The notes under the pieces were generated by a model. It was not told where the DNA came from. It ran no database searches and saw nothing but the letters and a program-made list of their open reading frames with translations. A DNA stretch of 64,000 bases from the NCBI GenBank assembly GCA_963693285.1, contig OY848918.1, positions 9,551,156 to 9,615,155 of the forward strand, in the 5' to 3' direction. Shown piece after piece: positions 485 through 61,456 of the stretch (the first letter of the stretch is position 1; every line of letters starts with the position of its first letter). Position numbers and translations under genes: made by a program. The stretch is from Xestospongia muta. Lineage: Eukaryota; Porifera; Demospongiae; Haplosclerida; Petrosiidae.

Positions 485-3400
485 ATGTTGATTTTTAGAA
501 GAAGTGACAGCTAATCCATATCAAAGATGATACATCTTTATACATGTAGACTTTTCTTCCCGTCTGTTGTGTATAAATTGTATTACATTAACAATAGAAC
601 AAGCTATCACTACAGATAACAACAAGTACACCCAGTCCAGTAATAGAACTAGTACAAGATATCAATATAAACATCAAATATTAGAGACAGTACCTTTTAC
701 TACTATCAGTATACAATGTAGGATTTGTAATTGATGGCTCAACTAATGTTTGATTAGCAGTAACTGACCATAGTCCATAACCATTAATAGTGTAACCACG
801 TACACCAAACAGATAACAGGTGTTACCTATCAAATCACTTATAATCACATTTGTACTACTTGTATTAGTTTTAATCATTGGACTAAACTCATCACTAGGA
901 GAACAACTACCATTAGACTGATGAGTAGTGTACCCTATCTCATATGTGATAATGGGATAGTCTACAGGAATATAACTAGGTACACTCCATGAGATAACAG
1001 CCCATGTAGTAGACACTAAACTGGATAGTGGGTGAACTGGACCAGGAACTGAGTAGAAAGTATATTTATTACCTATAATAACTGACAATGTACTTACTAG
1101 TTCCAATCTGTACTTCAACAAGATCACCATCTACACTCATGTTATATACATTACCAAATACTAGATCATTCACAACGTTATATCTCTCAGTACTGGTGAG
1201 GTTGTATGTGATACTATTGTTACTAATGATCACAATATACTCAATAATTCTACCATTACGTAGATAACAATCAATCTCTTCCCATATGATTTTGTTTACT
1301 GTCAAATTTACTGAAAGAGTCATAATTGATTTTGGTGATCTAAATGGAACTATAAGATTATAATTTTTAAATATTAATATCGATAATTATATTTTACATA
1401 AAGTGGGTTTTGTTTCATCAACTATCATCACTGGATTAGACTCTCCTAATATATTACCAGCTCTCACTGTGATGATATAGTTCATACCACTGAACAATTC
1501 TCTTAATATATAGCTGAATTTGTAGTGAACTGATAAGGGGTAACAGAAACCAATATCACATTCATTGATGTTAATGGAGGACAAAGTGGACTATAGGAGA
1601 TGTTGTAATATGTTACATAGTTCCCATCTTCACAATTAGGACTACTCCAGTTTACTGTAATAGTAGTAGTTGAGACATCAGTCACTGAGAGACTAGTTAC
1701 TGGTATGGGAACTAAAAATTAAAATTAACTCAGGTTAATGTTATCCAAATATGAACTTACCATTAAACCTTAACAATGTTTGTGTATTATTAATTGAAAG
1801 ATCTTTCTATGAGTACACTTAATACTAGTTTCATTAAAAATATATGTCAACACATTAGATGGAGACCATTGGGAACTAGAAATAAGGACTTTGTCAATAG
1901 AGTAACAACTAATTTGGATCCTAATGGACCAATAGTCAAAGTTACAACTAATAAATAAGTGCAAGTATAAGTAAGCTGACTGTCAGTAAAATAACTTCTT
2001 ATAAAATATAATATTGGTAACATTATGACATGATATACTATGATTATAATAATATCTCATTTGATTATTAGTTATATTAATTAACTATTCACTTTATAGT
2101 TGTTGTATAATTCTGGATGTAACTTATTGTAGTAATACTACTAGAAAATATATATAATGTATACCTCATCCACTAAATTATAACAACTCTTTAATCATAA
2201 ACAACAATAGTTTATGACTCTCTTACAGTTGTTGCTGATCATATTATAAAGTCCATATACTTACAATGACCATCACTTAATGATTACAACTATAGACTAT
2301 TAGACGACTTCATGTTTGTTTACCCTAGAACAAGATTATTAGATTAACTTTTTGAACTTTTATTAAGTTCAGTAGTACTGATGTGAACATAAGTATGTTA
2401 GGTACATATACAAGTATCTGTAATGTGTATTGTGTTGTCTGCTACTTAAATAAGCAGTGACTAATGAAACTAACAATGTTATGTTTGAGTATATTAGATT
2501 AGATATCAGAACAAAATTATGGAAATCCTACAAGTAGTTTATAAATTAGTATATGATATCAGATGAATAGCTATATACCTTGTAATATCACAGTGTCACT
2601 GTAGTTCACTCCTTTATACATTGCTATACAGGTAACATTAACTGATACTCCCAGTGGATCAGGATATACCAGTAGTGTGTTGTTGTATCTGAGGAATGTA
2701 TTGAGTGTTTTGAGATTCAATAATTGATGAGATAAATGTCTAATTTACTGATAAAATGACTAAATTACAAAGCAAAAATATAAATAAACTTCTGTAACAT
2801 AAATACCTGATAATAATGTCTTTATACTAGTTGTATTACTAGAAGGTCCCAGTATATTTTGATATGCTCTGATTGTGATGTTATAAGTTGTTTCTGGTAT
2901 TAGCCCCTTCAGTATCATCATATTCTGACTACCTCCCTTTACCTGTTGTGTCATAGTGTGTTTGTCACTAGTGGTATTGACTACATATCCATCAGCATCA
3001 GATGGAACAGGTGTCCAATTGACAGTGATAGTTGTAGATGTCTTGTTGACCAGAATAGGAAGAGAGGGAGTAAATCCTGGAGCTGAGAGGATTACATATG
3101 ACACACAATCACAGTAATAGAGTACTTAGCAGAGTATTCATCAGTAATAACATTAAGTAATAGAAATACTTACCAGTTACTGTAAGATAGCGATGTCTAG
3201 TAATCTCATCAACTTTTTGACACCAAAATGTATATGATCACCATTATTGTTTGACTGACTAAATATTCCACTAATGATCTCTGCATACCAAGTAACAGTA
3301 AGATTACGAACAATTATATTATTAATACTATAAAGGGTTTGATTGTCAATACTACAACTGTATCCAAAGTGTGGTGATACACAATTAAACTTGTTAAAAT

Positions 3401-4020
3401 TCTTTTCCAGTCCACTTAGAATACATTGTAGTGTGTATTGTTGTGGTAGAACTGTCATATTAGAAGGAAGTTCAACAACACTGAAGTTTAAGATTGCTAC
3501 ATGTTCTAAAGTAGATAAGTAACAAATGACAATGTGTACTAGTACAATGAATTATAACTTACTGAATATATTAACAGTGATGATGTTGGTAGAAGGAACA
3601 AAATTACTAGATAGACAACACTTGAATGTATTGTCTTCTGAATCAAATTCACAAAATTCTTCTCCATTAGGTTTATATACAGTGATGTAGCAGGATTATT
3701 AGAGACAATACAGCAAAGAGGATCATTGGTATTATTGTTGCTATAGTTGACAGGTTGTCCATTAGGATTAATCCACTGTCCTTCAGATAAGGTAGAATTT
3801 AGTAACACATACACTGAAGCTTGCTCAAGTGTGTGATGTACATTTCATTGATGTATGAGCATTTAGGATAACAATCTCCTTTGAACATTAGGTAGATACC
3901 TAGAATATTATCAAGAAATGATGTAATACACACATCAACTCACTCGCTTGAGTTTGGTGGACAGTTACTAATAACTTCACTGACATATAACAAGAAGAAA
4001 GCCTTTAATAATACTGACAT
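485..4020 (-). pseudogene. Receptor 1: broken Ig/FN3 receptor of the tail-type family
   Basis: This copy keeps a signal exon at the right (start 4020, MSVLLK...), Ig1 (about 3566-3930), Ig2 (3174-3500), FN3-a (2806-3090), a shortened Ig3 (2577-2735), a degenerate FN3-b (1760-1870), FN3-c (1396-1715), FN3-d (1069-1350), FN3-e (700-1060) and a transmembrane exon (545-660) of the tail-type sequence. Several lesions are visible. Ig1 loses one base near 3690, which shifts the frame. Ig3 has an internal deletion. FN3-d lacks the segment between VAG and VEVQIG. No ITIM-like tail exon follows the membrane segment, because the array spacer is fused there. It is best read as a pseudogene of a cell-surface receptor. 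Confidence 0.75.
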
Positions 4021-4045
4021 TGTCTTATTCTTAACAAAACCTCTT

Positions 4046-4865
4046 CCTAATCTTCAATACATTTCCTATGAAGTATACCTGATATTCTACAATGTCTCAT
4101 GTATAATAGTATTTTAATAGTTATATATGATATGATAACAATCAGAGTTGATGTTGTTAATGTACATAAACATCCAAAAATAATAGTAAGTGCCTTTATA
4201 AACAAAAGAATATTTGTAAAATATTTGTTATTCTTACATACGTAGTCTTAGGTACATAATACCACTATAGTGAACAAGATAGCAAATTCATAAAACAAAA
4301 TGTTTGCACAATCTCTTTGAGTTGCAATACATCTTGTTTATCTCATGCATGAATTACAAATAGTCTAACTTTTGAACTTATATATTTTGCACTGACAATT
4401 ATATATAGTCTACACTATACAAATTAACTTGTATATTTTAAATGTTTATATTTATAACTGTACAATCAACTTAATTATGTGGGTATGAGTATTATTATTA
4501 AAACAGTTACCAGTCATGTATAAATGTAAATGTTGAATATCACACCCAATATAATATGGAGGATCATGATTGTAGTATTCATTAAAAATATGTCCTCTAA
4601 TTTCTAACTCTTCAGTTGTCATATTATCAAAATGAACTCCATCAATAAACCAGTAGAGATATGAACCACGAACACAACAATAGAAGTAAGCTTGTTGACC
4701 AAGACGGACAGTAGTAGAGTAAGGATAATCCAAAAAATCTGAAACAGCTAAAATATTTGTTATTTTCAAATAGTCTTACCTCCATTATGACAGCAAACAA
4801 GATAGCAAATTCATAAAACAAACAAGTTTGAACAATTTCTTCAAGCTACAAATCATCCTGCTTGT
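4046..4865 (-). pseudogene. Remnant of small Ig-transmembrane gene upstream of receptor 1
   Basis: A transmembrane exon (about 4046-4210) encodes a hydrophobic stretch beginning TLTIIFGCLCTLTTS and a basic tail ending CIED, followed by a stop just before the ATG of receptor 1. A separate Ig exon lies at about 4490-4750 and contains YPYSTTVRLGQQAYFYC, LYWFIDG and NMTTEELE, typical of a V-like Ig fold. Its 3' part is cut off and joined to spacer repeat. First-exon-like sequence is present at about 4240-4330 and 4780-4865. The order is scrambled, so the gene is not functional as seen. No known family name can be given. Confidence 0.55.
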
Positions 4866-4869
4866 CTCA

Positions 4870-5781
4870 TACATGCATTATAACTAACTAACTTGTGAAC
4901 TTAATAATATATATTATACTAATAAATATAGTTTACATTATACAAATAGACTTGTATATATTAACTGTTTATGTTCACAGCTGTACAATCAACTTAATTA
5001 TGTGGGTATGAGTTTATGACGTGACATGATCAGACAAATCTCTCTCCTCCATACATTACTAGTTCAATCATACACCACTGTATAGATACAAAGATGATTA
5101 GTAAAAACATAAAAACATAAGAAATGTTATTGAGTGATATTGCATGTATGAAGAAATAAGTCACAATTACTTATACTTGTATGTCATTGATGTTATAGAT
5201 GCTATAATTAGCAATTGTTTATTGTATAATTTTGAACTCTGAATTAAGAAAAATCAACAAATATACAAAGACTTACTGCTAATTTTAAATATAATTTGCA
5301 TTTATCTCAATAACTCGACTTATACATAGACTATAAAAAGTAACAGGTTTGGATGTAACCTTAACCAAGTATCCTTGCACATTTCTTAGGTGTAGAAACA
5401 GAAGATCCTTCATGTTTGGGTCATTTTATAAACTTTCTTTTACCAACATATAGATAATTGCTCAAACTCCAACATATGGTCAGACATTATATTGTGAATT
5501 TACATTATTTTGTTTTATAAATTTTAAATATTGACCATCAATAGAAATATGAAACTAATATAACTCAGGATGATATTTTAATTAATATTTAATTATAACA
5601 TAAATGTTAAAGTTCCTTCCACACTAATATCTATGCTTAAAATAATTGATTGCATCACATAATTACCAAATGAAATATCAATCTACAAGAATAAACTATT
5701 TGACTGCTACAAATAAAACTATACTTAATTCAACATGTGTTTATAGCTACCTAGTGTAGCCATAAATATATATGTTGTCAG
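4870..5781. repeat. Array spacer repeat
   Basis: No gene is seen. The stretch carries the recurrent block around ttaattatgtgggtatgag followed by gacatgatcagacaaatctc, and the block with ggatgtaaccttaaccaagtatcc. Diverged copies of both recur across the window. The left part probably held the promoter of the small Ig-TM gene, and the right part holds the 3' flank of RPTP-L. Confidence 0.5.
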
Positions 5782-6440
5782 TTAAAAACTAAAGTTAGCA
5801 TATGTACTGTTCATTGCCAGATAGAACTGGATGACATCATAAATGGAAGTATATTGTTCCTGTACGAGAGAATATGAGATATCACTCTCTTTTTAACAAA
5901 CTACTCTATTATTACCAGTGTAGTCACAGCTCCTGGTTTGCTTCTTTTAACAGCTTTGGTCACTTGAAATACATCTATTACACCTTCTGTCTTACACTGT
6001 TCTAGAGCAATACTTAGTGAACAGTATACTCCAGAACGACTCACTGTGTCACTAGAGGAAAAGGAAATGGAAGAAGGAACTATTGTCATGTGTACAATCT
6101 CTCCGCTACCTGCAGTGTACAACTATTGGTCCTCCTCCAATCTTTTGTTGTACTTTAATAACTCCATCAATAACTTGTAACAATGTCTGAGGTTGTCTGA
6201 CACAACCATCATTAGGCCAGTCCAGTACTTGGAACTGAACTAAATTGTATGTCAAACCCTTGAAAGTATTACTACCATTAATTTTATTACTTTTGTGATA
6301 ACTATCTCACTTCATTAGATAAATTACTAACAAGAAGATTTCTCTGAACATACCCTTGTTTCTCCTCTTCAGAGGTACATCTTATACAGTATTCACCATA
6401 CATACCATGTGTTGCTTGCCAGTACTGATAACATGTTTCC
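5782..6440 (-). other. D2 pseudophosphatase region of RPTP-L with intron inside the catalytic loop
   Basis: The membrane-distal domain has VLDWPNDGC in place of WPD. The catalytic loop is split by a 58-base intron (6052-6109) just after the Cys codon, giving HC|SDTVSRSG after splicing. CX5R is formally kept, but the small residues Ala-Gly are replaced by Asp-Thr. The C-terminal helix reads EQYTSIYDVIQFYLAMNSTY. D2 domains of animal receptor phosphatases are often inactive and regulatory, and this one fits that pattern. Confidence 0.75.
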
Positions 6441-9400
6441 TAATTCAGTGCAACAAAAAATAATAATAATGCAAAGACTAACAATTTACCATTCCATTCT
6501 CTTCTAGTTCACATAACATAACAATAGTAGACACTTTATAATCCATTATCATCTTCCAAAAGTCTCTGGTGGTATTCTCCATAGGACTCTGAGCTATAAT
6601 GAATGCTTTCTTCTCTCGATAGCCCTAATGAAGAATTGATTAATCAACAACACATCAGTTTATTAACTCACATTTAAGAAAGAGGCATTAATATAGCCTT
6701 TAGTACCCTGAAGTGTAACAAGAAATCTCTCAGCTAAAAATATATTGTCAATAATATTAGCTTTATTATCCAACAGTCCTTACGTGGTAGGTACTTGTCA
6801 GAACGATTTTTAGCACTATTGACCTCTGCTGTATTACAGTATATATCATCAGGATCAGGACTTATTTGAGATAAAAGATTAAACTGAGATTCTAGACCTG
6901 TCTGGTGTGTTTTGGAGTCAGGTTTTTTAAGTTTTTGAAGCTCAAATTGATATTTGTATGCTGTGATATCTGTTTCTCCACAAATAATTGTTTCTAGTAC
7001 AGCATCATGAGCAAAAGCATACTGTTCCTATAGAGGTAATACATTGTATTAGGGACAGTTCTTAATATTGTGACTTACAGCTGTTTGTACCATCTTCATT
7101 CTCTGTTCTCTGAGTCTATTGATAATACCAGCAATATCTACTACTCCCTCTTTACTAGCCTGTTCTAGAGCTATGTCCACAGCAATATATGTACCAGTAC
7201 GACCTACACCAGCACTACAGTGGACTAGGATGGGACCTTTAGATGGAGACCATGTATTAGTCACTCGTTTGTGAAGAATCATTAGAGGAGTAGCATATTC
7301 GGGTACTCCTTGATCAGGCCATGAAGTAAGATGATATTGTGTTATGTCATGAGTCTGATTGGATCCATCCTCTATCTATTAACAGATAAATCTATATGTA
7401 TTTAACAGTTATATTTACTTTCACTTTGAGACTTCTGATAGTGAAATCTGGTAAAACTTGTTCATCCAGTATTGTAACAGTGAATGGTCCAAAGGTAGTG
7501 GATTGTTTATGAGGATCTGGCCAATATTGTTCACATTTACTTTTTGATCCTTCCTTTAAATTAGTTACCATGACAATAATTTGTGGTCTCTCCTGCCAAA
7601 TTAGTCTCCAGAAATCAACCAATGTTTTACTCATTGGTCCTACACAAAAATAACAACATTTATAATTTTACATAATCTATTATCTTTACATGTCTACCTT
7701 GTGATGCTATAAACTTCTTGGGACAACTATAGCCCTAATATACATTATAGTAATAATGGTAAATAACTACATCAAGTACTAGTAACTTACATCTATATAA
7801 CTAGCATTGATATATTCTCTTTGACATTGATTCAGTTCAGGATTAGGTATGAGAACAATCCTGTTGTCATCATCTGTTCAATGATCATAACAAGACATTC
7901 ATACCATATATGGTAATGATATATGTACTACATACATGTTGTGATGTTCTTGAATCGATTGAGAAGTTTATTCTCCTTACTAAAACCTACTGTACAAGGT
8001 TTGTCTTCTCCTTTAGACAGCCCCTATGAATTAATGAATGATCATACTGTGGTTTCATTCTTTACCTTATATTGTTCACTAAAAGCTGCATTACCATCAC
8101 TATGACAACTGGCTACATGAGTACCAAGATCATCAAGTGATATAGGAAGAGTAGGAGGGATCTGAGGATGAAAATTAATAGTGGGAGGAGGAGAGTGAAC
8201 TGGAGAGGAGGAAACAACATATAATGTATCAGTTATACCACCATTTTGTGATTTATTACCAGTAGTATCAGTGGGTATAGGGAGGTCAGTAATTACTGAA
8301 TATTCTAACAATACAAACAATATTACTTGTAATATATTGACATATTGTATACCTGGTTCAGGTAATGATATCTCAATGTTAGCTTGTTGTTTTACATTCT
8401 CATAACCAGTAGTATTTGATAAAGAGGAATGACTGGACTTTTTCAATTTATTAACTACAGCATACTGTTGTTCTTCTAGTGAACACAAAACAATAACAAT
8501 ATTCTAGCTAGATCTACTATACCTGTTACTGGTTCAATTGGTCTCTTTTCAGTTAGTATAAAGTTTTCATTACATTTTTGTTTGAAATTCTTGTTTATTA
8601 TTCTGTGTCTGTGTTAAACCATACATACTTTATCAATATATGTATGTATTACTGATCTTACCTTACAACACATACTACAATTAGTATCACTACTATTAGC
8701 AATATAGTCAAGACAATAGCACTAACAACTCCAATTGCTGTACCTAAAACTAAAAAATATAGATATATTGTTAAAATTTATATTTATATTTCTTTGTCTC
8801 TACTATAAATTAAACCATATGTCACTAAATTTATCTTACTTCCATTAGTAGAGATTGTTGTAGGTGTTGTTGAAGAAACAACCAGTGTTTGGTTAGAAAT
8901 TACTGTCCACACTCCATAACCATTAACAGTGTAACCACGTACACCAAACAGATAACAGGTGTTACCTATCAGATCACTTATATTCACATTTGTTGTAGTA
9001 TTTGTACTTGTATTAGTTTTTATCAATGGACTAAACTCATCACTAGGAGAACAACTACCATTAAACTGATGAGTAGTGTACCCTATCTCATATGTGATAA
9101 TGGGATAGTCTACAGGAATATAACTAGGTACACTCCATGAAATAACAGCCCATGTAGTAGACATCAAACTGGTTAGTGTACCAACAGGACCAGGAACTGA
9201 GTAGAAAGTGTAATTATTACCTAAAATAACTGACAATGTACTTACTAGTTCCAATCTGTACTTCAACAATATCACTGAATGGACCTCTTCCAATAGAGTT
9301 CACACCAGCTACACTCATGTTATATACATTACCAAATACTAGATCATTCACAATGATATATCTCTCAGTATTAGTGAGGTTGTATGTGATATTATTGTTA

Positions 9401-12041
9401 CTAATGATCACAATATACTCAATAATTCTACCATTACGTAGATGACAATCAATCTCTTCCCATATAATTTTGTTTGATGTTAAATTTACTGAAAGAGTCA
9501 TAATTGACTTTGGTGATCCAAATGGAACTATATGATTATATTATTTAAATAATATTAATAAATATATTTTACCTGAAGTGGGTTTTGTTTCATTAAATGT
9601 CATGACTGGACTAGACTCTCCTAATACATTACCAGCTTTCACTCTGATGATATAGTTCATACCACTGAGCAATTCTCTTAATGTATAACTGAATGTTGTA
9701 GTGGATTGATAAAGAGTAACAGAGACCAATGTCACATTCAAGGAAAATAACTCAGAACAAAATGAACTATATGAGATATTGTAGTATGTTACATAAATTC
9801 CATCTTTACTACTGGGACTAGTCCAGTTCACTGTAATAGTAGTAGTTGAGACATCAGTCATTGAGAGACTAGTTACTGGTGTAGGAACTAGATAACAAAA
9901 TAAATTCAGATTGTGTTTATCCAAATATGAACTCACCATTAAACCTTAACAATGTTTGTGTACTATTAATTGAAGGAAGATCTTTATATGAGTACACACT
10001 GATGTTATATGTATTCAATGTTAGTCTGTTGATTATAACTTCATGTCCTGTAGTAGATAATATCTTGTTGGTTCCTACTCCAGTAGTAGAGTTAATAATA
10101 ATGACATATCCATTAGTCTGTGATGACATAGTCCAGTTGACTTTAATACTAGTCTCATTCAAAAGATATGCCATCACATTAGATGGAGGACCACTAGGAA
10201 CTAGAAGATGAACCCTTGCTTAATAGCGTAACAACTATTTTGGGTCTAATGGACCAATAGTCACAGCTACAACTAATAAATATTAGTAAGTATCAGCTAC
10301 AACTAATACGTATATATTATATCTGTTTTGTGTTGTCTACTACTTAAGCAGTAATTTATAAAACTATGTGTGTTAATAGTTAAGATATCAAAACAAATTA
10401 ACTATATTTTGTTTATGTATATTAGTTAAGATATCAGAACAAAGTTTTAGAAAAACTACATATACTATAGTAGTATATATATGATATCAGATGAATAGCT
10501 ATATACCTTGTAATATAACAGTATCACTGTACTTCACTCCTTTATATATTGCTATACAGGTAACATTAACTGACACTCCAAGTGGATCAGGATGTACCAG
10601 TAGTGTGTTGTTGTATATGAGGAGATCAGAATCAATTAATGTAAACATTGAGTTGTACTTCATCACTCCATTCACTAACCAGTAAACATCAGTAGTAGCA
10701 TTGACAATAGTTGTGATACAGTCAATATAATATTGAGTGTTTTGAAGTTCAATAATTGATGAGATAAACACCCAACTTACTGATAAAATAACTAGATTGT
10801 AAGGAGTAAAATAAAGCTAAAATCTACAATATAAATACCTGATATCTGTACACTAGTTATATTACTAGCAGGTCCCAGTATATCTTGATATGCTCTGACT
10901 GTGATGTTATAAGTTGTTCCCAGTATTAGTCCCTTAAGTGTCATAACATTCTGACTACCTCCCTTTACCTGTTGTGTCACAATGTGTGTGTTATTAGTGA
11001 CATTGACTACATATCCATCAGCATCAGATGGAACAGGTGTCCAGCTGACAGTGATAGTGGTAGCTGTTTTGTTGACCAAAATAGGAGGTGAGGGAATAAA
11101 TCCTGGAGCTGATAGGATTACATATGCAACATAACCACAGTAATGGAAGCACTTACCAGTTACTGTAAGATAGCCACGTCTAATAATCTCACTAACTTTT
11201 TGATAAAACAAATGTCTATGATCACCATTATTGGTTGACCAACTAAATATTCCACTATTGATCTCCTCTGCATACCAAATAACAGTAAGATTACGAACAA
11301 TTGTATTATTAATACTATAAAGGGTTTGAGTTTCAATACTACAACTGTATCCAAAGTGTGGTGATACACAATTAAATTTGTTACTTGTACTAATGTAATA
11401 CCATCCAAAATTCTTTTTCAGTCCACTTAGAATACACTGTAGTGTGTATTGTTGTGGTAGAACTGTCATATCAGAAGGAAGTTCAACAACATTGAAGTTT
11501 AAGATTGCTACATGTTCTACAGTAGATAAGTAACAAATGACAATGTGTACTAGTACAATATGAGATATAACTTACTGAATATATTAACAGTGATGATGTT
11601 GGTAGTAGGATCAGAACAACTACTAGGTAGACAACACTTGAATATATTGTTATTATCTTCTGAATTAAATTCACGAAATTCTTGTCCATTAGGTTTATAT
11701 ACACTGATGTTAGCAGGATTATTAGAGACACTGCAACGAAGAGGATTGTTGATATTATTGTTGTTACAGTTGACAGGTTGTCCATTAGGATTAATCCACT
11801 GTCCTTCAGATAAAGTAGAATTTAGTAACACACACTGAAGCTTGCTTGTTGGTGTGATGTACATTTCATTGATGTATGAGCCATCAGGATAACAATCTCC
11901 TTTGAACATCAAGTAGATACCTAGAATATTATCAATAAATGATGTAATACAGACATCAACTCACTTACCTGAGTTTGGTGGACAGTTATTAATAACTTCA
12001 CTGACATATAACAAGAAGAAAATCTTTAGTAATACTGACAT
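5782..12041 (-). CDS. RPTP-L: intact receptor-type tyrosine phosphatase, Ig/FN3 ectodomain
   Basis: This spliced gene has all modules and no frame lesion that I found. The order is signal exon (11969-12041, MSVLLKIFFLLYVSEV), Ig1 class alpha (11576-11920), Ig2 (11157-11510), FN3-a (about 10840-11115), Ig3 (10505-10784), FN3-b (9937-10205), FN3-c (9573-9890), FN3-d (9245-9535), FN3-e (8840-9215), transmembrane exon (8660-8755), juxtamembrane exons (8065-8625), D1 (7076-8025), linker and D2 (5782-7028). Extracellular exons begin and end in phase 1. D1 has WPDQGVP, HCSAGVGRTG (about 7193-7222) and REQRMKMVQT, so it should be an active phosphotyrosine phosphatase. D2 keeps Cys and Arg but has HCSDTVSRSG and WPNDG, so it is probably inactive. 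The last exon ends at a TAA at 5782-5784. The ligand is unknown. It is the best phosphatase-type gene in the window. Confidence 0.88.
7076..8025 (-). other. D1 catalytic phosphatase domain of RPTP-L
   Basis: Five or six small exons build the domain. One starts GLSKGEDKPCTVGFSKENK, and the next carries YDDNRIVLIPN and REYINASYID, the usual substrate-binding region. GYSCPKKFIASQG follows, then a long exon with KTLVDFWRLIWQERP and CEQYWP. The final exon (7076-7375) carries the WPD loop and the catalytic loop HCSAGVGRTG, with the nucleophile Cys near 7217-7219 and Arg near 7199-7201. The Q-loop REQRMKMVQT is present. All elements needed for catalysis are visible. Confidence 0.88.
8360..8625 (-). 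other. Juxtamembrane tyrosine-containing segment of RPTP-L
   Basis: Two exons between the membrane and D1 encode EKRPIEPVT, EEQQYAVVNKL and NTTGYENVKQQ. TGYENV fits the TxYxxV pattern of an ITSM, and its YEN fits a Grb2-type SH2 site. The next exon (8065-8307) adds EYSVITDLP and DTLYVV. These are predicted phosphorylation sites only. Confidence 0.5.
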
Positions 12042-35424: not shown

Positions 35425-35467
<43 letters not shown>

Positions 35468-35501
35468 TATGAATAGCCTTATACCTTGTAATATCACAGT
35501 A

Positions 35502-35548
<47 letters not shown>

Positions 35549-50030: not shown

Positions 50031-50634
50031 TTTATCTTATACATGTATTACAAATAGTCTAATTAGTCAATTTATATATATTATACTAATAATCAAAATA
50101 TAGTCTACACTATACAAATAGACTCGTATGTTTTAACTGTTTATGTTTATAGCTGTACAATCAACTTAATTATGTAGGCACAAGTTTAAGACATGATGAA
50201 ATCAGACAAATGCCTCACCTCCATATATTACCAGTTCATCATTTTATCATATACCTCCATATATACTATAACTAGCAATATATGTTAAGTATTACTACAT
50301 TTAGGACTCTGAATTATAAAAATAAATCTACAGTTTCACTGCTAATTTTCAATATAATAATTATTTGCCTTTACCTCAATGCTACAATAGTGGCAGGTTT
50401 GGATGTAACCACAAATGTGTCCTTATACATTTCTTGGGTGTTTTATGTTTAGATTATTTTATAAACTTGCTTTTATCTATAAATAGATATTTGCTAAACT
50501 CCAACATATGGTCAGACATTATATTATGAATTTATATTATTTTGTTTCATAAATTTTAAATAATCACCATCAAAAGAAATATGAAAATAATATAACTTTA
50601 CATGATATTTTATTTAATATTGACTTATAACATA
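50031..50634. repeat. Array spacer repeat interrupted by the transposon
   Basis: No gene is seen. The promoter-like block ttaattatgtaggcacaag is at about 50164. The block aggtttggatgtaaccac is at about 50395. The spacer ends at tgacttataacata, where the transposon is inserted; the uninterrupted form is visible at about 63160-63180. Confidence 0.5.
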
Positions 50635-51018
50635 GAGTAAACTATTGGTATTCGGACACCATGTATATTCGGACGTCTTCCCTCTTTAGTAGAATATAGA
50701 AGTAGTGAAATTGGTACATATAAATGTAGCTCATAGATAGGTAAAACACTAGATGTGGAGAGCCGCCGTTTTCAACTTTGCTCTTAGCCACAATGATCAG
50801 AAAACGAAGAATGTCGGACACGTCTAAGTTCGGATAAAAAATTCTATTGTCGTACACTTGGCTCTTTTTGTTGAAGGTGAAACAAAACTGTTGGCAACTA
50901 ATAGTAAACAAATGTCCTACTAAACCTCTACAGATTCTGCTACAGAACGTTTGAATTTATTAGTGGCTTTCGCAGTGTTCCGTGATCCAAAAGTAGGAGG
51001 CGTGGCATGTATATTCGT
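50635..51018 (+). repeat. Left terminal inverted repeat of the transposon
   Basis: It begins gagtaaactattggtattcg. The motif tattcggac occurs twice near the tip (50649 and 50666), as expected for transposase binding sites. The open frame across this repeat appears mirrored in the other end and is probably not a gene. Confidence 0.88.
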
Positions 51019-51309
51019 GCTAAAACAAATACTATGAAAGTCAACACAATTGAAAAATTTGACGTCAAAGGTCGCTCGGTCTCTATTAAAAATTGTTCAG
51101 ATGAGAATAAATTAGTTTTTACCATTATTATATTTAAATGAAAGTCAGTTCTTTAAGCATCAAAATAATTTATTTTCATGCACAAACACCAGTACCACCC
51201 ATTACAGTAAGGACACTGTAATTACTTATAAGCTCTTGGGTTAGAACATAAATGACTCATGCAAGCTGTTTCTAGATAAATTGATACAATCTAATCATCA
51301 TACTGGTAA

Positions 51310-52650
51310 CTTGTTCTTACTTCCAGTAGTTGTATCATTCATCTCACAAATGGACTGGGCAGACACATTTTGTTTACCTATATATAATAATTATAAATTA
51401 ATCAATATACATTTATTTACCAGTAGTAGAACTGGTTCCAGAATCACTAATAGAGGGATGAGCTACGCTATATTCACCTACTTACAGTAATTATAGATAT
51501 AATTATTTTAAATAAAATTAATATACAAGGATATTTAGACAAATTGGACATTATCTTTACAACGTACAAACAATATCTATAACACCATTTAATATATATT
51601 TAAGTTTGTTACTAACATAGAACTTAAACTGTTGTAATAGCATTCATTTTTAAATAGGAACTGTATATTCATTTACTGGTAGTAGATCTGGCTCTAGTCT
51701 TTTTAACAGAGGGACAAGATACACTTTGTTTACCTTACAAAAAATATAAAAAATACATTGTAATTGAATGTATATTTATTTACTAGTAGCAGCTTTAGAG
51801 TCAACAACAGAGGGACGAGATATACTTTGTTTACCTAAACTAATTATAAAAACATAATAAAAAATATATTCATTTACCAGTAGCAGCTGTAGATTCACTA
51901 ACAAAGGGACAAGATGCACTTTGTTTACCTAAAAATAATTATTTATGCATTATATTGAAACCAGTATTTATTCATTTACGAGTAGTAGATCTGGTTCTAG
52001 TCTCTCTAACAGAGAGATGTGATACACTTTGTTTATTTAATATAATTATAAATACATCATTATATATATATATATATTCATCTATCAATAGAAGCTATAT
52101 AGCACTAACACAGGAACAGAGTTCATTTTGTTTACCTAAAATAATTATAGTGCATTGTAAACAAATATTTATTTATCTATCTGTAACAGATCTGGTTCTA
52201 GTCTCTCTAACAGAGGGGCAAGATACACTTTGCTTATTTAATATACTTATAAATACATCATTAAAATTTGTTTCTTTACCAATAGTAGATCTGGCTCTAG
52301 TCTCTCTAACAGAGGGGCAAGATAGAGTTTGTTTATCTAATATACTTATAAATAGATCATAAAAATATATTTTTTCTTTACCAATAGTAGATCTGGCTCT
52401 AGTCTCTCTAACATAGGAAGAAAATACACTTTGTTTACCTAATATAATTATAAATACATCATAAAAATGTGTTTCTTTACCAGTAGTAGATCTGGCTCTA
52501 GTCTTTCTAACAGAGGGACAACATAAACTTTGTTTACCTAAAAATAATATCAATGTATTGTAAACAAATATTTATTTATTTACCAGTAATAGAGCTGGCT
52601 CCAGAGTCACTAACGTTAACAGAGAGATTAGATACACTTCGTTTACCTAG
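51310..52650 (-). repeat. About twelve 57-base exon-like units spaced by about 100 bp
   Basis: On the minus strand the best units follow an AT-rich tract ending in ag. They then read gtaaacaaagtgtatcttgt, continue for 57 bases and end ctactg before gtaaa. In most units an acceptor and a donor are visible, and the unit length is a multiple of three in phase 1. The encoded repeat resembles KQSVSCPSVRETRARSTTG. Units near 51975, 52175, 52275, 52380, 52478 and 52580 are regular, and those near 51320, 51417 and 52079 are diverged. The array lies just downstream of the transposase on the same strand, so it could encode a spliced repetitive tail. It may also be a plain minisatellite. Confidence 0.6.
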
Positions 52651-52718
52651 AATAAGTGCCTGTAGTAAATACTTACTTATACAAAGTGTATTAATTGATT
52701 ATGTGTTCATTATATTAA

Positions 52719-54555
52719 TTGGAATTACTTTTTGATCTTTCTCTTGCAAGTCTTTTAGGTTCAGCTTCTTTTTTCTTCCTATTTCTTTCTTCTAGAGCAC
52801 ATTTTTTTTCTTTTCCTTTTCTTCCAAAGTTTCCTTTTCCTTCCTCTCTTTTTTTTCAACCATCTTACGATTTTCGTCACTTGTCAAAACACGAGCAGAT
52901 GTCTTTGCTTCTTTTCTTGGAAGCTTTGTATTTGGCATTTCATTTAAAAAATTGGAACGAGTGGTGACCGAGGTAAGTTGACAAACTTGAGATCCATGAC
53001 ATTTTTCTACTTCAGGTCTAGAAATATCAGGTGAACATGAAACGGATAAAGGAAAAACCTCCCCAACATGTGGTGATAAAAATTGTGGTGTACCTTGAGG
53101 ATGATACATTTCAACCCACTTGTTGTATCGTACATCTGTCTCTAAATTATAGCCTTCCTCATAACGTTGTTAAAAGCATAATATCTCTTCAGTAGTGAAG
53201 GAAGTATTATGTACTGGAGATGTATGTGTTGATGGGCTATAAAGGGGAAGGTAATGGATTTTTTTGTCTTCTAAATCTGCCATCCTAGATTTTACTGGTG
53301 TTTTAATAGAAACAGCTGCTCTGTTAATAGGGTAAATTCCAGTGGTACGAAAACCACTTACAACATTTTCCATTGTCATGCTTCGAGTCCATGCACATCG
53401 AAAAACCTGACAAAATGTAAACCTTTTGATAACCTTTCCAGGGTTTGAGCTTAAGTAATTATGGCACTCCTCTCATCAATATCTGTTTAAAATGGAAAAA
53501 CATCCCTTATCAAGGGGCTGAGTCAAGTGTGTAGAATGGGGTGGTAAACAAAACATAATTATTCCTTCCTCTGCAGCTTTATTAATAACAGATGGAGTAT
53601 AATGAGAGGAATGTTCATCTAACAATAAAAGCAATGGATGAAGTGGTGGAGTATGAGACAGAAAATGATGCCTGAACCACAGATCAAACAGTTCACCATC
53701 AATCCAGTCACTCTCTGACAAGCCATACATTGACCCTGGCACCTCTCCTACAGTCTTTTCAGCCTTTAATGTCTTTCTGTCAAACACTATCATTGGTGGC
53801 AAGACATGGCCACTTGCACTACAACAAGACAACACAGTAATTTGAGTTTTGTTACCAGTAGTAATGGATTGAGTGTGTTTTTGCCCTTTCCGAGCAATGA
53901 CTTTAGGAGGTGCTGGGTCTAGTGGTATACCAATTTCATCACAGTTATATATTTGGCAAGGTTTACTAGACAAGTCATTTTGATCTAATGTTTTTTCAAG
54001 AATATCAAAATAATGATCAAGAACTTCAGGTGAGGTACACGTGGCTCTAACATGGGAGAGTTGTTCAGGATTTCTAAGAGACAATGATGGATGCCTTTTT
54101 CTAAAAGAATCCCACCAGCCATTTGTAACGATAACATTTATGCCTTTTTGGTGGACAACACTTTGAACGATTGCTAAAATTTGCTTCCGAGACTTAGCAA
54201 ATCCTATAGATGAACAACCAAGAAGAAACTGCACAAGTTCTTCCTCTTCAACATCACTGAGGTATTTTGTTGGTCCACTGACAGATCCAAACATCACTTT
54301 TCCACTGAGGCGATCATGTAAAGTACTTTTTGGTATATTGTATTCTTCAGCTGCTTTTCGGACAGACATACCACCCAATACTGCTTCATAAGCTTTAAGT
54401 AATTTATCCTTCTCATAAAGCTTGTATTGTGAGGGGCGCACAGATGTGCTTGATAAAGGCCTATGGCTACTGTGTGATCGAAAAGTTCTGTCAGCTATAA
54501 GCAGATGATGAGATGACAGCTGAATTAGAAAAAATATTTTATTAATAAATAGCAA
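52719..54555 (-). pseudogene. Transposase of the Tigger/pogo group with nonsense and frameshift lesions
   Basis: The N-terminal part (about residues 50-85 counted from 54555) is a Psq-type helix-turn-helix with SVRKAAEEYNIPKSTLHDRL. A CENP-B-like DNA-binding region with WWDSFRKRHP follows. The DDE core has YNCDEIG (Asp 206), LLLLDEHSSH (Asp 313) and QPLDKGCF (Asp 349), a DD35D spacing. Two adjacent TGA codons at 53473-53478 interrupt the frame, and a TAA at about 53157-53159 interrupts it again. The same frame goes on to about 52792 and then shifts in a poly-T run at 52801-52808, with a basic tail ending near 52719. The true start may lie in an upstream exon. It would bind the terminal repeats, but this copy is dead. 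Confidence 0.85.
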
Positions 54556-55211
54556 CAGATAAATTGGTTATACACAAATAATTTCAATTGGCTTAACTTG
54601 TGTTTAACAAGTTGTCACTTCATTTATACCATTATGAAATCCGGCCCACCTTACATCATTATGCTTTGAAATAACCACAAGTTCACAGTATCTTCAGACA
54701 GCAATTAAATAGCATTTTTAGTTCTTTGACAAACAAGCATATGTTCATTCACCACATGATTACAAACATACAGACATACCACCCAATACTCCTTCATTAC
54801 AAATTATTTCACTTTACATTCAGTTTAAAGATTTAGCATTAACAGTTAAAAACTAAAAGAATTCTTTATTGTATTAACACAGACAACAGTAGTGAATAAA
54901 TCAAGATCATCATAAAAAACACACTATCTGATGTAGAGATCATTTTAATTTATAACTTAGAAAAAACAGATTGACTTACCATAACAAATTGTGATAAAAA
55001 GTCAGAATAATTGCAGTTCTAATCTGTGGTCGTAGCAAAATATCCAATTCAAACTCTTCACTATGACAAAAAAACAGTAGGAGTAGTTGAATAGTTGTGA
55101 AATTTATTGATTTCGTACTGAAAGTAGAAATAGACAACTCTAAACACACGACTGAGCCAACCCTACCTTGACGCTTTCACTTAGCATGTGACAACACGTA
55201 TTTAATACAGG

Positions 55212-55595
55212 ACGAATATACATGCCACGCCTTCTACTTTTGGATCACGGAACACTGCGAAAGCCACTAATAAATTCAAACGTTCTGTAGCAGAATCTGT
55301 AGAGGTTTAGTAGGACATTTGTTTACTATTAGTTGCCAACAGTTTTGTTTCACCTTCAACGAAAAGAGCCAAGTGTACGACAATAGAATTTTTTATTCGA
55401 ACTTAGACGTGTCCGACATTCTTCGTTTTCTGATCTTTGTGGCTAAGAGCAAAGTTGAAAACGGCGGCTCTCCATATCTAGTGTTTTACCTATCTATGAG
55501 CTACATTTATATGTACCAATTTCACTACTTCTATATTCTACTAAAGAGGGAAGACGTCCGAATATACATGGTGTCCGAATATCAATAGTTTACTC
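55212..55595 (-). repeat. Right terminal inverted repeat of the transposon
   Basis: This is the complement of the left end, running from acgaatatacatgccacgcc to caatagtttactc. About six mismatches separate the two ends. Confidence 0.88.
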
Positions 55596-55597
55596 TA

Positions 55598-55865
55598 CAT
55601 GATTACGCAATAAGTACTAATAGGTATTATGTTTGATGCCAATCTATATAATTATCATTTTTTTGATTTTAACAAAATAATTAGTTATTTTGTAAGCTCT
55701 TTCTTTGTCAAATTGAACCAAACAATGAAAAAAGATCAATATAAATCATAATGCCTATATATTTAAACATGAAATACTAATTATTGCTTAAAGGTAACAT
55801 TAGAAAGCAACAGCTTCAAATCAACTACAATTATTGACAACACAGTCAGTTAATATGTATTATGA
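55598..55865. repeat. Continuation of shared intergenic region
   Basis: No gene is seen. The sequence aataggtattatgtttgatg parallels the region just 3' of other receptor tails (compare 33770 and 37540). The transposon therefore lies between spacer and the 3' flank of receptor B. Confidence 0.45.
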
Positions 55866-55867
55866 AT

Positions 55868-58233
55868 TCATATTGACTCATAGACACTAGTACCAGTAAT
55901 ATCTGTTGTTGACAGTTGACACTCATCATATATCACTTTACTCTCATCAGTTGGTTTAGACTGATGAAGACTGTATGGTTCACAGACTTGCATTTCAATA
56001 TCTTCATCAGGTCTATAGAGAGACAGTGTATGAGTTAACACAAAGTAACAGAAATATGACAACTTACCCACTCTCTTTTTGATGTTCACTTTTAGAGGTA
56101 ACAGTTTCTGTCCTATTGAGTCTGTATAAAATTAAAGTAAATTTAAACACATGAATAATAAAGATTTACTATACCACCTATTATGTATAAACATTAGCAA
56201 TAGAACAAGCTATCATTACAGATAACAATATGACAACTTACCCACTGTCTGTTTGATGTTGATCATTAGAAGAAATGACAACTAGTCTGTATCAAATATG
56301 ATACATCTTTATACATGTAGACTTTTCTTACCGTCTGTTGTGTATAAATTGTATTACATTAGGAATAGAACAAGCTATCACTACAGATAACAATATACCA
56401 ACAAGTACACCCAGTCCAGTAATAGAACTAGTACAAGATATCAATATTAATATCAAATATTAGAGACAGTACCTGTTACAATCATCAGTACACAATGAAG
56501 GATCTATCATTGATAGATCAACTAATGTTTGATTAGCAATAATTGTCCATACTTCATAACCATTAACAGTGTAACCACGTATACCAAACAAATAACAAGT
56601 GTTACCTATCAGATCACTTATAATGATATTTGTACTACTTGTATTAGTTTTAATCATTGGACTAAACTCATCACTAGGAGAACAACTACCATTAGACTGA
56701 TGAGTAGTGTGCCCTATCTCATATGTAATAATGGGATAGTCTACAGGAATATAACTAGGTATACTCCATGAGATAACAGCCCATGTAGTAGTCATCAAAC
56801 TGGTTAGTGTACCAACTGGACCAGGAACTGTAGTATAAGATATAAATGTAGCTCACTAGAATGGACAATGTACTTACTAGTTCCAATCTGTACTTCAACG
56901 AGATCACTGAAGGGACCTCTTCCAATAGAGTTTACACCTGCTACACTCATGTTATATACATTACCAAATACTAGATCATTCACAATAATATATCTCTCAG
57001 TACTGGTGAGGTTGTATGTGATACTATTGTTACTAATGATCACAATATACTCAATAATTCTATCATTACGTAGGTGACAGTCAATCTCTTCCCATTTGAT
57101 TTTGTTTGCTATCAAATTTACTGAAAGAGCCATAATTGACTTTGGTGATCCAAATGGAACTATATGATAATATTATTAAAATAATATTAATAAATATTAT
57201 TTACTTGAAGTGGGTTTTGTTTCACCAAATGTCATGACTGGACTAGACACTCCTATTACATTACCAGCTCTCACTGTAATGATATAGTTTGTACCACTGA
57301 GCAACTCTCTTAATATATATGTAAATGTTGTAATGAACTGATGAGAAGTAACAGAGACCAATGTCACATTCACTAAAATAACTCAGAACAAAATGGACTA
57401 TAGGAGATGTTGTAGTATGTTACATAGTTCCCATCATCACTATTGGGACTAGTCCAGTTCATTGTAATAGTAGAAGTTGAGACATTAGTCACTGAGAGAC
57501 TAGTTACTGGTGTAGGAACTAGATAATAAAATAATGTCAGATAACTTTTTATCCAAATATGAACTCACTATTAAATCTTAAAAATCTTTGTGTACTATTA
57601 ATTGTAGGAAGATTTTTATATGAGTACACACTGATGTTATATGTACTCAATGTTAGTCCATTGATTATAACTTCATGTTCTGTAGTAGGTAATGTCTTGT
57701 TAGTACCTACTCCTGTAGTAGAGTTAATGACAATAACATATCCATTAGTCTGTGATGACATAGTCCAGTTGACTTTGATACTAGTCTCATTTAAAATATA
57801 TGCCATCACATTAGATGGGGACCACTGGGAACTAGAAGATAAAACATAAAATAAATAGAGCAACAACTGTTTTTGATCCAATGGACCTACCAGTCACAGC
57901 TACAACTAATGAATAACTGTAATATATATAATCTGTGAAATTTGTTGTTTGTTAATTAAGGAAGCAGCAGCTAATAAAACTAACTATATTTATTTATGTA
58001 TATTAGTAATATATCAGAAAAAGTTACAGAGATAGGAGATCCTTACATGTTTTGGGTCATTTTACTAATGAGCCATTAGGATAACAATCTCCATTGAACA
58101 TCAAGTAGATACCTAGAACATTATCAATAAATGATGTATTACACACATCAATTCACTTACCTGAGTTTGGTGGACAGTTACAAATAGCTTTACTGACATA
58201 TAACAAGAAGAAAGTCTTTAGTAATACTGACAT
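55868..58233 (-). pseudogene. Receptor B: tail-type copy lacking Ig2, FN3-a and Ig3
   Basis: The signal exon (start 58233) is followed by only the first part of Ig1 (58070-58120). FN3-b (57560-57835), FN3-c (57205-57530), FN3-d (56878-57165), FN3-e (56472-56825), membrane exon (56335-56430), cytoplasmic exons and tail exon (55868-56010, ending TSVYESI) follow. One-base deletions are visible at the start of FN3-b (gatggggacc instead of gatggaggacc) and in FN3-c near 57375. The tail part is undamaged, including the middle cytoplasmic exon (about 56053-56133). It is read as a pseudogene with a good 3' half. Confidence 0.7.
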
Positions 58234-58264
58234 TGTCTTATTTTTAACAAAACCTCTTTCTAAT

Positions 58265-59005
58265 CTTCAATACATCAGCTATAAGGTATTCCTGATATTC
58301 TACAATGTCACTTGTATAATAGTATATAATATAATAACAATCAAAGTTGATGTTGTTAATGGAAATAAACATCCAAAAATAACAATAAGTGTCTCTGTAA
58401 ACAAATGAATGTTATTTCAAAACATGTTATATGAAGTACAAGGATTGGGATTATCTTCCACATATTTATAACATTATTTTTCCTAGTTATATTCACAGTT
58501 GTGATTATACTGTTTCTACCTGTCATTGACAATATCAATGTTGTGTTCTCATCATGATAGAATAGAATACTTTAAAATCTGTGACAACTTCTAGATTAAA
58601 TATATGTATATTTTTACATTAAAAGGAAATGTCAATAAATTCAAAACATGAAGAGTATATATGCAGTAAAAATTGATATTGATATATATTGTTATATGTT
58701 GCATGTAGCAAACTTAGTATGATGTAAAAGTAAACATTAAATTACAAATGTACTATTTGCTACATAAGCGGTAGTACATTAGTAACCAAAACAGTGTTAT
58801 GATTACTTTTACATCATACTAAGTTTGCTACATGTAACTTGTATAAACAATATATTGCTTAAATCAACAAATCAATTTTTACAGTGTATAGAGTTACCTT
58901 GAACTTTTAATATTGCTAAAGAACTTGTTGCATTATAAGTTGTATTACCCAGAATAACACAGTATACTTCAGTATTGTTATTAAGACAGTTGTTACCAGT
59001 AATAT
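58265..59005 (-). pseudogene. Remnant of small Ig-TM gene upstream of receptor B
   Basis: The membrane exon (about 58300-58410) reads TLIVIFGCLFPLTTSTLIV but stops early after IIQVTL. The short exon is at 58485-58600, with NTTLILSMTGRNS. The Ig exon end is at 58898-59000. The Ig exon is then cut and joined to spacer sequence at about 59003. A MITE sits in the intron. Confidence 0.5.
58666..58882. mobile_element. Foldback MITE, copy 3
   Basis: The outer ends are gtaaaaattgat and atcaatttttac. The inner arms cttagtatgatgtaaaagta and tacttttacatcatactaag pair perfectly over 20 bases. It occupies the same intron as copies 1 and 2. Confidence 0.72.
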
Positions 59006-59730
59006 CTACACTATACAAATAGACTTGTATATTTTGCCTGTTTATATTTATAGCTGTACAGTCAACTTAATTATGTGGACATGAGTTAAGACATGATTTA
59101 ATCAGACAAATGTCTCTCCTCTATATATTACTAGTTCATCATTTTATCATATAACTCTATAGATACTATAACTAGCAATGTGTGTTACATATTACTATAT
59201 TTAGGACTTTGAATTATAAAAATTCAATAAATTTACAGTATCACTGCTAATTTTCAATATAATTATTTGTCTTTACCTCAACACTACCCTAGTGGCAGGT
59301 TTGGATGTAACCACAATTGTATCCTTGTACATTCCTTGGGTTGTAGAAATAGAAGATCCTTACATGTTTGGATCATTTTATAAACTTGCCTTTATCTACA
59401 TAAAAATATTTGCTCAAAGTTCATCATATGGTCAGACATTATATCATGAATTTACATCATTTTATTTCATATATTTTAAATAATCACCATCAAAGGAAAT
59501 ATGAAAATAATATAACTTTACATGATATTTTATTTAATATTTACTAACAACATAGATATTAGAGTTCTTTTCACTCTAATATCTATATATGCTTAGATTA
59601 ATTTATTACATCATGTAATTAGCAAATAAACGCCAAACTACAGCAATAAAATATTTAACTGCTACTAATACAAACTATACTTAATTCAACATGTGTTTAT
59701 AACTACCTAGTGTAGCTACATATATTATAT
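59006..59730. repeat. Array spacer repeat
   Basis: This contains the promoter-like block near 59065-59130 and the ggtttggatgtaaccac block near 59298, then the 3' flank shared with RPTP-L. A 63-codon plus-strand frame at 59292 is open, but its equivalents at other copies are not conserved as a frame, so it is not called. Confidence 0.5.
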
Positions 59731-59734
59731 GTGG

Positions 59735-61456
59735 TTTAGCATATGTACTGTTCATTGCCAGATAGAACTGGATGACATATTAAATGGAAGTATTTTGTCT
59801 TACACTGTTCTAGAACAATATATATTGAAAAGTATACTCCAGAATGACTAACACTGTCACTAGAGAAAAGAAGATGTCCTCCAATCTTTTGTTGTACTTT
59901 AATAACTCCATCAATAACTTGTAACAATGTCTGAGGTTGTCTGACACAACCATCATTAGGCCAGTCTAGTACTTGGAACTGAACTAAATTGTAAGTCAAG
60001 CCCTTAATAAATAATGGTACCATTAACTTCATTTATGTTTTGATAATTATCTCACCTCATTAGATAAAATGTTAACAAAAAGTTTTCTCACAATATATCC
60101 TTGCTTCTCCTCTTCTGAAGTACACCTTATACAGTACTCACCATATGTACAATCTGTTGTTGGCCAGTACTGATAACATGTTTCCTAATTCAGTGCAACA
60201 TTAACAATTATACAAAATATTAATACTAACAATTTACCTTTCCATTCTCTTCTAGTTCACATAACATAACAATAGCAGATAGTTTATAATCCATTATCAT
60301 CTTCCAAAAGTCTCTAGTAGTGTTTTCTATTGGACTCTGAGCTATAATGAATGCTTTCTTCTCATGATAACCCTAATGAAGAATTGATTAATAAATAATA
60401 CATCAGTTTATTAACTCACATTTAAGAAAGAGGCATGAATATAACCTTTAGTCTCTTGAAGTGTAACAAGAAATCTCTCTGCTAAAAATATATTGTCAAT
60501 AATATTAGATTTATTGTACAACAGTCCTTACGTGGTAGGTACTTGTCAGAACGATTTTTAGCACTATTGACCTCTGCTGTATTACAGTGAATATCATTAT
60601 GAGCAGGAGTTATTTGAGATAAAAGATTAAACTGAGACTCAAGACCTGTCTGGTGTGTTTTGGGAATAGGGTTTTTAAGTTTTTGAAGCTCAAATTGGTA
60701 CTTGTATGCTGTGATATCTGTCTCTCCACAAATAATTGTTTCTAGTACAGCATCATGAGCAAAAGCACACTGTTCCTATGGAGGTAATATATTGTATTAG
60801 GGACAGTTCTTGATATCATAACACTGTACAAAATACTTTTCCAATCCACTTAGAATACACTGTAATGTGTATTGTTGTGGTACAACTGTCATATCAGAAG
60901 GAAGTTCAACAACACTGAAGTTTAAGATTGCTACATGTTCTAAAGTAGATCAGTAACAAATGACAGTGTGTACTAGTACAATATGAGATATAACTTACTG
61001 AATATATTAACAGTGATGATGTTGGTAGTAGGATCAGAACAACTACTAGGTAGACAACACTTGAATGTATTGTTATTATCACTTCCATTAGCTTCATCAA
61101 AAGTTATACCACCATTAAGTCTGTATAGACTGATACTAGCTGGATTAGTAGTTTTGTTACAATGGAGAGGATTATTATTACATCTACCATTAAGATCAAC
61201 CCACTCTCCTCCAGACAAAGTAGTATTAGGTAATGCACACTTCAGAGGAGAATAGTTAGCATGATCTTTTGTGATGTAAATATGATTGATGTAGGAGCCA
61301 TTAGTATAACAATCTCTATTGAACATCAGGTAGATACCTAGAACATTGTCAATAAAAGATGTACTACTGATTAAATCACTTACCTGATATTGGTGGACAG
61401 TTACTAATAACTTCATTGACATATAACAAGAAGAAAATCTTTAGTAATACTGACAT
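59735..61456 (-). pseudogene. Chimera A: signal and Ig1 joined to a decayed D2
   Basis: The signal exon (start 61456, MSVLLKIFFLLYVNEV, alpha-like) is followed by Ig1 of class beta (61000-61345) and the first part of Ig2 (about 60826-60935). At about 60823 Ig2 joins the last intron of D1, so the rest of the ectodomain, the membrane segment and D1 are deleted. The linker (60540-60775) and D2 exons follow. D2 lacks the HC half of the catalytic loop and has DSVSHSG, with Arg changed to His. It cannot be a working receptor or phosphatase. Confidence 0.72.

Follow-up and report, generated by a model that had tools for sequence, protein, structure and literature searches.

Can one family of cell-surface modules serve two different kinds of intracellular end, and be shared between them? 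The question is raised by a 64-kb stretch of the genome of the demosponge Xestospongia muta (contig C2, positions 9551156–9615155; genome 158 Mb), hereafter the window, which contains four short-tail (T) and four receptor-phosphatase (P) units, all on the minus strand. The initial annotation of this DNA had proposed similar outsides joined to different insides, and that arrangement is borne out both in the window and in the ~310-kb cluster that contains it. We consider it probable, judging from sequence, that these demosponge genes form a paired-type receptor family, in which a shared ectodomain is joined to P and T ends and is mixed between them by recombination or gene conversion.

Organization of the cluster

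The window and the cluster (9.395–9.725 Mb, apart from one 10-kb block) were mapped by tblastn with exon peptides, and nearly all pieces lie on the minus strand. From this map, 35 units were picked by hand and modelled with a custom spliced aligner; at least 12 smaller fragments were omitted. Seventeen units were modelled on a T reference; of these, 15 carry short-tail exons and two, H and u9638, have lost the tail. Another 18 were modelled on a P reference, 17 of them with membrane or PTP-D1 exons and one, A, with late exons only. Unit letters are our own and were matched to those of the initial annotation by count only. The short tails in the window end at 55871, 45358, 37773 and 34054. There are 87 self-alignments of at least 600 nt in the window, more than expected by chance. 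Units L (P) and C (T) illustrate the classes, with the following elements:

5785–12041, minus strand: unit L, intact phosphatase-class gene from signal peptide to PTP-D2, 24 exons, 1607 aa; no stop or frameshift in the spliced model, and a stop codon next
8816–9196, minus strand: FN3-e exon of L; the switch point lies in its 3′ half
8662–8749, minus strand: membrane exon of L, entered in phase 1
8066–8475, minus strand: juxtamembrane exon of L, with QYAVV, GYENV and IQYVNI
6784–8023, minus strand: PTP-D1 exons of L, with WPDQGVP and HCSAGVGRTG
5785–6733, minus strand: PTP-D2 exons of L; WPN replaces WPD, HCSDTVSRS is retained
45358–49148, minus strand: unit C, complete ectodomain and short tail SVYESI; of its two small tail exons the second has lost its acceptor, and a model that uses the first is lesion-free
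45816–45911, minus strand: membrane exon of C, entered in phase 2 and unrelated to that of L
45358–45499, minus strand: last exon of C, with CEPYCLH, VIYDEC and SVYESI before the stop
43898–44607, minus strand: PTP-D2 exon remnant downstream of the short tail of unit C

A shared ectodomain with two tails

The ectodomain module is composed of a signal peptide (SP), three domains without a Pfam match and five FN3 domains (FN3-a to FN3-e). An Ig/FN3 ectodomain had been proposed; Pfam confirms the FN3 domains, whereas the Ig part is unconfirmed. The three N-terminal exons of L have no Pfam Ig match and their structure models are poor, so the exons first called Ig are named D1, N2 and N3 here. Structural modelling is weak throughout: the Amphimedon queenslandica relative P0015 has a mean predicted local distance difference test (pLDDT) score of 43, and D1 scores 36. 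Structure matches found through P0015 are mostly FN3 chains and cover residues 141–360. The description of the ectodomains as near-identical was too strong, as identity is ~74–91% at the DNA level in alignments of at least 600 nt covering the ectodomain, and 98.7% is the maximum over single 250-nt windows.

The T class has a membrane exon, one or two small exons and a last exon with CEPYxxH, IYDEC and SVYE motifs. The P class has an optional linker, a membrane exon, a juxtamembrane exon (QYAVV, GYENV or GYEYV, and IQYVNI) and then the protein-tyrosine-phosphatase (PTP) exons. The two membrane exons are unrelated, as had been noted: in windows past FN3-e (from column 3400), mismatch is 0.41–0.53 between classes versus 0.06–0.21 within a class.

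Two stretches of P unit u9415 match PF00102 in Pfam (2.1e-141), and a membrane segment was identified by inspection, as was the last exon; this indicates a single-pass receptor with two PTP domains, in the P class only. PTP-D1 contains WPDQGVP and HCSAGVGRTG in both L and u9415, and its WPD and HCX5R motifs predict a catalytic P class. PTP-D2 of L has WPN for WPD and keeps HCX5R. Tandem PTP domains had been assigned to all four P units of the window and are found in two, I and L, whereas J and K break off within the exon that follows PTP-D1.

The cluster has 15 last T exons; all of them keep the second and third of three tyrosines, and 13 keep the first. As the initial annotation reported, SVYESI (three tails) or SVYDSI (one) directly precedes the stop in the four window tails and resembles an immunoreceptor tyrosine-based inhibitory motif (ITIM). 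The pattern [SILV]xYxx[ILV] fits 12 of the 15 cluster tails, the other three ending in SVYEST; by a rough estimate, one of three tyrosines would fit so loose a pattern by chance about once in five. The ITIM is not conserved across the family, and the three tyrosines are what persists. The P juxtamembrane exons also carry an ITIM-like sequence, IQYVNI.

Ectodomain variants are mixed across the tails

Nearest neighbours were compared for exons covered to 90% or more, in units of one tail class, with split or frameshifted exons dropped. For FN3-e, the nearest neighbour shares the tail in 27 of 27 cases. The corresponding counts are 14/28 for SP, 9/28 for N2, 12/25 for FN3-a, 14/26 for N3, 14/28 for FN3-b and 14/25 for FN3-d. 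Exon trees give a similar picture. The tail changes once on the FN3-e tree (none of 300 shuffles is as low) and 7–10 times on those of N2, FN3-a, N3, FN3-b and FN3-d (61–231 of 300 shuffles as low). Across the cluster, sorting by tail is absent from five of the eight ectodomain exons, partial on two and complete on FN3-e. The conflict between ectodomain and tail trees, which the initial annotation had proposed as a test, is seen for most ectodomain exons here, and also in 11 A. queenslandica proteins.

A scan in 200-nt windows of 14 P and 8 T units, all full and chosen by hand (p values uncorrected for window number), locates the boundary. There is no sorting from N2 through most of N3; it is present in parts of FN3-b and FN3-c (p 0.006–0.05), vanishes in FN3-d, and rises from 15/22 in the early part of FN3-e to 22/22 in its 3′ part. 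Along unit L, the closest match changes between units of the T and P classes. The switch point had been placed at the intron between FN3-e and the membrane exon; it lies instead inside the FN3-e exon, in its 3′ half.

Intron phase suggests why. The ectodomain introns of L and C are phase 1. The intron joining FN3-e to the membrane exon is phase 2 and 45–46 nt long in all 14 T units with both exons, and phase 1 in 13 of 16 P units (phases 2 and 0 occur in two damaged units, and one is unassigned). A simple swap within this intron would thus break the reading frame, which would explain why the end of FN3-e travels with the tail. As far as sequence can tell, the ectodomains, with D1 and FN3-c partly sorted, have been exchanged or homogenised across tails, which is the signature of paired receptors.

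The family in Amphimedon queenslandica

The closest named relatives are A. queenslandica proteins, listed in UniProt as FN3 proteins or protein-tyrosine-phosphatases, which account for 28 of 37 matches at 44–67% identity. By motif, 7 of these 28 have a T tail, 5 have PTP-class parts, 2 have a third tail and 14 have no visible tail. The A. queenslandica family has the same ectodomain order, both tail classes and homologous PTP exons; its T tail is also homologous (46–58% identity in the six proteins where blastp covered the tail). It differs in the context of the last tyrosine, found in VYERM, VYEHM and IYEPM, so that no ITIM is present and several proteins have YxxM near the end, and in the extra tail class of P0007 and P0009, carried on the same ectodomain. 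A search of the X. muta genome for this third tail, run without a positive control, gave no match.

Two-species trees were made for six domains from 7 T and 4 P A. queenslandica proteins together with the cluster units; P0004, a fused gene model, was left out. Species changes once in all six domains, and the tail changes 8–12 times (3 for FN3-e), meaning that ectodomains cluster by species, not by tail, in both species. Either exchange continues in both lineages, or both lineages expanded anew, starting from genes that had both tails; the behaviour of FN3-e favours exchange. A. queenslandica P0168 (T) and P0173 (P) are both on 37353-long contigs, which suggests that they are neighbours.

Copies and candidate partners in the genome

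With 150 of 238 candidates scored, the FN3-e exon has at least 150 matches in the genome, some of them fragments of a single exon, mostly on contig C11 at 3.16–3.99 Mb and on C2 at 9.41–9.72 Mb. The last T exon has 97 listed matches, of which 77, some partial, fall under E 1e-6. The PTP-D1 exon has at least 45 matches (150 of 226 candidates scored): 18 on C2, 24 on C11 and 3 on C7. Further large PTP-exon arrays lie beyond the C2 and C11 clusters, on C7 (0.31–0.72 Mb) and C12 (0.98–1.34 Mb).

One unit in the 10 kb of C11 that we read, at 2186–8156 of locus L035, has both tails. Its ectodomain is followed by a phase-1 linker exon, T exons with a stop and then P exons, with phase-1 acceptors for both paths. 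The unit is decayed, with a stop in FN3-b and, on the P path, a frameshift and stops, some of which may be unspliced intron in the model; no SP or D1 adjoins it. This unit and the PTP-D2 remnant behind unit C are relics, either of hybrids or of a dual-tail ancestor.

The genome also encodes possible signalling partners. Four single open reading frames (ORFs) have the SH2-SH2-PTP order of SHP-2: one on C5, confirmed by Pfam, and three in tandem on C3 (11956215–11961741), an expansion of SHP-2-like phosphatases. A fifth such locus, on C8, has its parts in neighbouring frames. An SHP-2-like gene is 77% identical to its A. queenslandica counterpart and 97% identical to another sequence. Nine ORFs with SH2 and kinase domains (Src type) are located on C8, eight of them in one tandem array (6531713–6584463). 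Kinase tails within the receptor arrays were considered and rejected, since no listed PF07714 match falls inside the C2 and C11 arrays (128 of 1237 candidates scored).

Interpretation and alternatives

One ectodomain module exists in two gene classes: P, with its membrane exon, a tyrosine-bearing juxtamembrane exon, a PTP-D1 with catalytic motifs and a PTP-D2 without the WPD aspartate; and T, with a different membrane exon and a short tail in which three tyrosines are kept. The two classes have mixed ectodomain stretches, most probably through recombination or gene conversion, as far as the 3′ half of FN3-e, where mixing stops. Beyond the architecture and the ectodomain mixing, which are read from the DNA, we infer that both classes would meet the same ligands. 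Src-type kinases would phosphorylate the T tails, which would then bind SH2 proteins, for example the SHP-2-like phosphatases of this genome, and P would itself strip phosphotyrosine. How P and T are balanced at a contact could set a threshold for cell recognition, most plausibly of self versus non-self or of microbes. A doubtful extension, which we hold only tentatively, is a large germline recognition system, possibly a histocompatibility or immune receptor complex, in which an enzyme-bearing partner and a partner with a phosphorylatable tail trade ectodomain variants.

Several observations weigh against the paired-type reading. D1 and FN3-c retain a residual tail signal: their nearest neighbours share the tail at intermediate frequency (19/25 and 19/23), and the tail changes only 5 and 4 times on their trees (13 and 2 of 300 shuffles as low). 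Few cluster units are lesion-free, namely 5 of the 18 modelled on P (L, u9704, u9697, u9621 and u9415) and 2 of the 17 modelled on T (C and E). The mean pairwise ratio of non-synonymous to synonymous change (dN/dS) is 0.39–0.74 by ectodomain exon, below 1 in all eight. The ITIM pattern fits none of ten A. queenslandica T tails, and a function for the T tail is suggested by analogy only. In favour of the paired-type reading, dN/dS is 0.19–0.54 for PTP exons and the catalytic motifs of PTP-D1 are kept; elsewhere, dN/dS is 0.35 for the T membrane exon, 0.88 for the last T exon and 1.19, from few differences, for the juxtamembrane P exon; all values are raised by the inclusion of stop-free exons from broken units. 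In sliding windows, the corresponding proportions (pN/pS) exceed 1.3 in D1 loops and in parts of N2, FN3-c and FN3-e. These values neither show nor exclude local positive selection.

Tail loss would yield two classes with no recombination between them, if an ancestor carried both tails in series, alternatively spliced, and its duplicates each lost one. The L035 unit, with T and then P exons behind phase-1 acceptors, and the PTP-D2 exons retained behind the tail of unit C are what such a history could leave. However, FN3-e sorts perfectly with the tail and FN3-d, one short intron upstream, does not; the phase of the FN3-e intron differs between the classes on C2; and the L035 unit is decayed and the sole one of its kind in the sequence read there. 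We regard tail loss as rather unlikely. It is also improbable, in our view, that these are LAR-type receptors for adhesion or development, subject to ordinary birth-and-death evolution, with the short-tail class as decoys or duplication by-products that do not signal. The non-sponge matches of the P class are indeed mostly LAR-type phosphatases, the best solved PTP pairs are those of RPTP-alpha, RPTP-sigma and LAR, the T units read on C2 are mostly broken, and dN/dS is below 1. Yet the T tail and its tyrosines are conserved in A. queenslandica, and last T exons are no rarer genome-wide than the PTP-D1 exons of the family (77 of 97 listed, some partial, versus 42 of 45 listed on C2 and C11).

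The initial annotation called the two signalling ends opposite. CD45 activates Src-family kinases, and in a true opposite pair P would do likewise while T inhibited through its ITIM; the 12 fitting cluster tails and the SHP-2-like genes agree with this. The absence of the ITIM from the A. queenslandica tails, several with YxxM near the end, and the ITIM-like IQYVNI of the P juxtamembrane exons do not, and we find such a pair distinctly unlikely. As stated, the claim is unsupported: P is predicted to be catalytic, and the T-tail ITIM fits here and not in the relatives. Because an ITIM would bring in phosphatases, the two ends could equally act in parallel. It is possible that both dampen signalling, or that P activates in the manner of CD45; the YxxM contexts of the relatives point elsewhere. 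The paired-type family with shared, mixed ectodomains is the reading we retain.

Condition of the units and other elements

Three of the eight main window units show no disabling lesion in spliced models: L (P), and C and E (T). Some details of the models need adjustment. The model start of u9621, u9704 and E lies three codons inside an existing ATG, and one D2 exon of L, u9704, u9697 and u9621 is modelled a few codons short, with a better acceptor and the GYRE codons present. Introns are mostly 41–66 nt, the one preceding FN3-b is often longer, and a 31-nt intron in several models is doubtful. The remaining units are:

59793–61456, minus strand: unit A, a fragment; SP-D1 and part of N2 fused to late PTP exons
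55871–58233, minus strand: unit B; SP, FN3-b to FN3-e with a frameshift in FN3-c, and short tail SVYESI; lacks D1 to N3
37773–41607, minus strand: unit D; complete ectodomain, short tail SVYDSI; 1-base deletion near the end of FN3-c
34054–37120, minus strand: unit E; shorter ectodomain, without FN3-d, FN3-e and most of FN3-c; short tail SVYESI; lesion-free
32874–33351, minus strand: unit G; SP and D1 exons only
29149–32214, minus strand: unit H; ectodomain truncated in FN3-d, tail-less
22913–29028, minus strand: unit I; phosphatase class, full length; modelled with four frameshifts, TTG for the start ATG, and a stop at the start of one D2 exon (the same place as the mis-set acceptor of L)
16122–20220, minus strand: unit J; broken phosphatase unit, ending inside the exon that follows PTP-D1
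13383–15985, minus strand: unit K; broken phosphatase unit lacking the N-terminus, part of PTP-D1 and PTP-D2, ending inside the exon that follows PTP-D1
404–4020, minus strand: unit M, decayed; short-tail membrane exon present, last tail exon not found

A T-then-P pair was considered as the repeat unit of the array and rejected: by eye, P follows T about as often as in random order. Between the receptor units lies a small exon family, Z, that recurs through the cluster and has no Pfam match in the one copy scanned. In the tblastn map its copies are at 4467–4733, 21583–21922, 42841–43002 (plus strand), 49587–49890, 58899–59051 and 61757–62525. A ~5-kb element (50618–55612) with 415-nt terminal inverted repeats (96%) is inserted in the array. 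It contains a pogo/Tigger-like transposase (DDE_1, Psq HTH; 53476–54567) and a minisatellite with a ~99/201-nt period (51680–52601).

Comparison with known systems

Most known paired receptors come from vertebrate immunity. Ectodomains mixed across P and T in a demosponge would show the same evolutionary solution within one early-branching animal lineage, with an enzyme as one end. If the recognition-system reading is true, the paired-receptor principle would extend to the base of the animals and include an enzyme-bearing kind of pair. The array also offers concrete candidates for work on sponge recognition, in which polymorphism would first be sought in the D1 loops and in parts of N2, FN3-c and FN3-e. 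No published description of the family was found, by title or abstract shown, in the literature searched, and passages of PMC5336234, PMC4772301 and PMC6208332 do not describe it.

LAR/RPTP-sigma and RPTP-alpha share the tandem PTP domains, and the LAR type also has an FN3 ectodomain; the sponge family differs in being a tandem array with a short-tail class. We know of no short-tail twin gene for LAR, RPTP-sigma or RPTP-alpha. The Botryllus fester co-receptors, in the excerpts of a review available to us (PMC12065747), are likewise clustered receptors with tyrosine motifs, which alternative splicing can swap. They belong to the Ig superfamily, with other domains, and their locus genetically controls fusion, whereas the sponge array is known from sequence alone; the same excerpts set polymorphism and genetics as the yardstick for allorecognition. 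CEACAM paired receptors (PMC2832619, PMC5112662) have alike ectodomains and differing cytoplasmic ends, but there the ends are ITIM versus ITAM-like (immunoreceptor tyrosine-based activation motif) tails, with no PTP end. A further parallel is Siglec-11/Siglec-16, in which, according to PMC5701461, gene conversion keeps the ectodomains alike although the signalling of the two members differs. Outsides held similar by conversion are the mark of paired receptors, and as far as sequence goes the sponge family bears it. The Siglecs are two genes for sialic-acid lectins, not phosphatases; the sponge family comprises tens of units, with a PTP as one of its ends.

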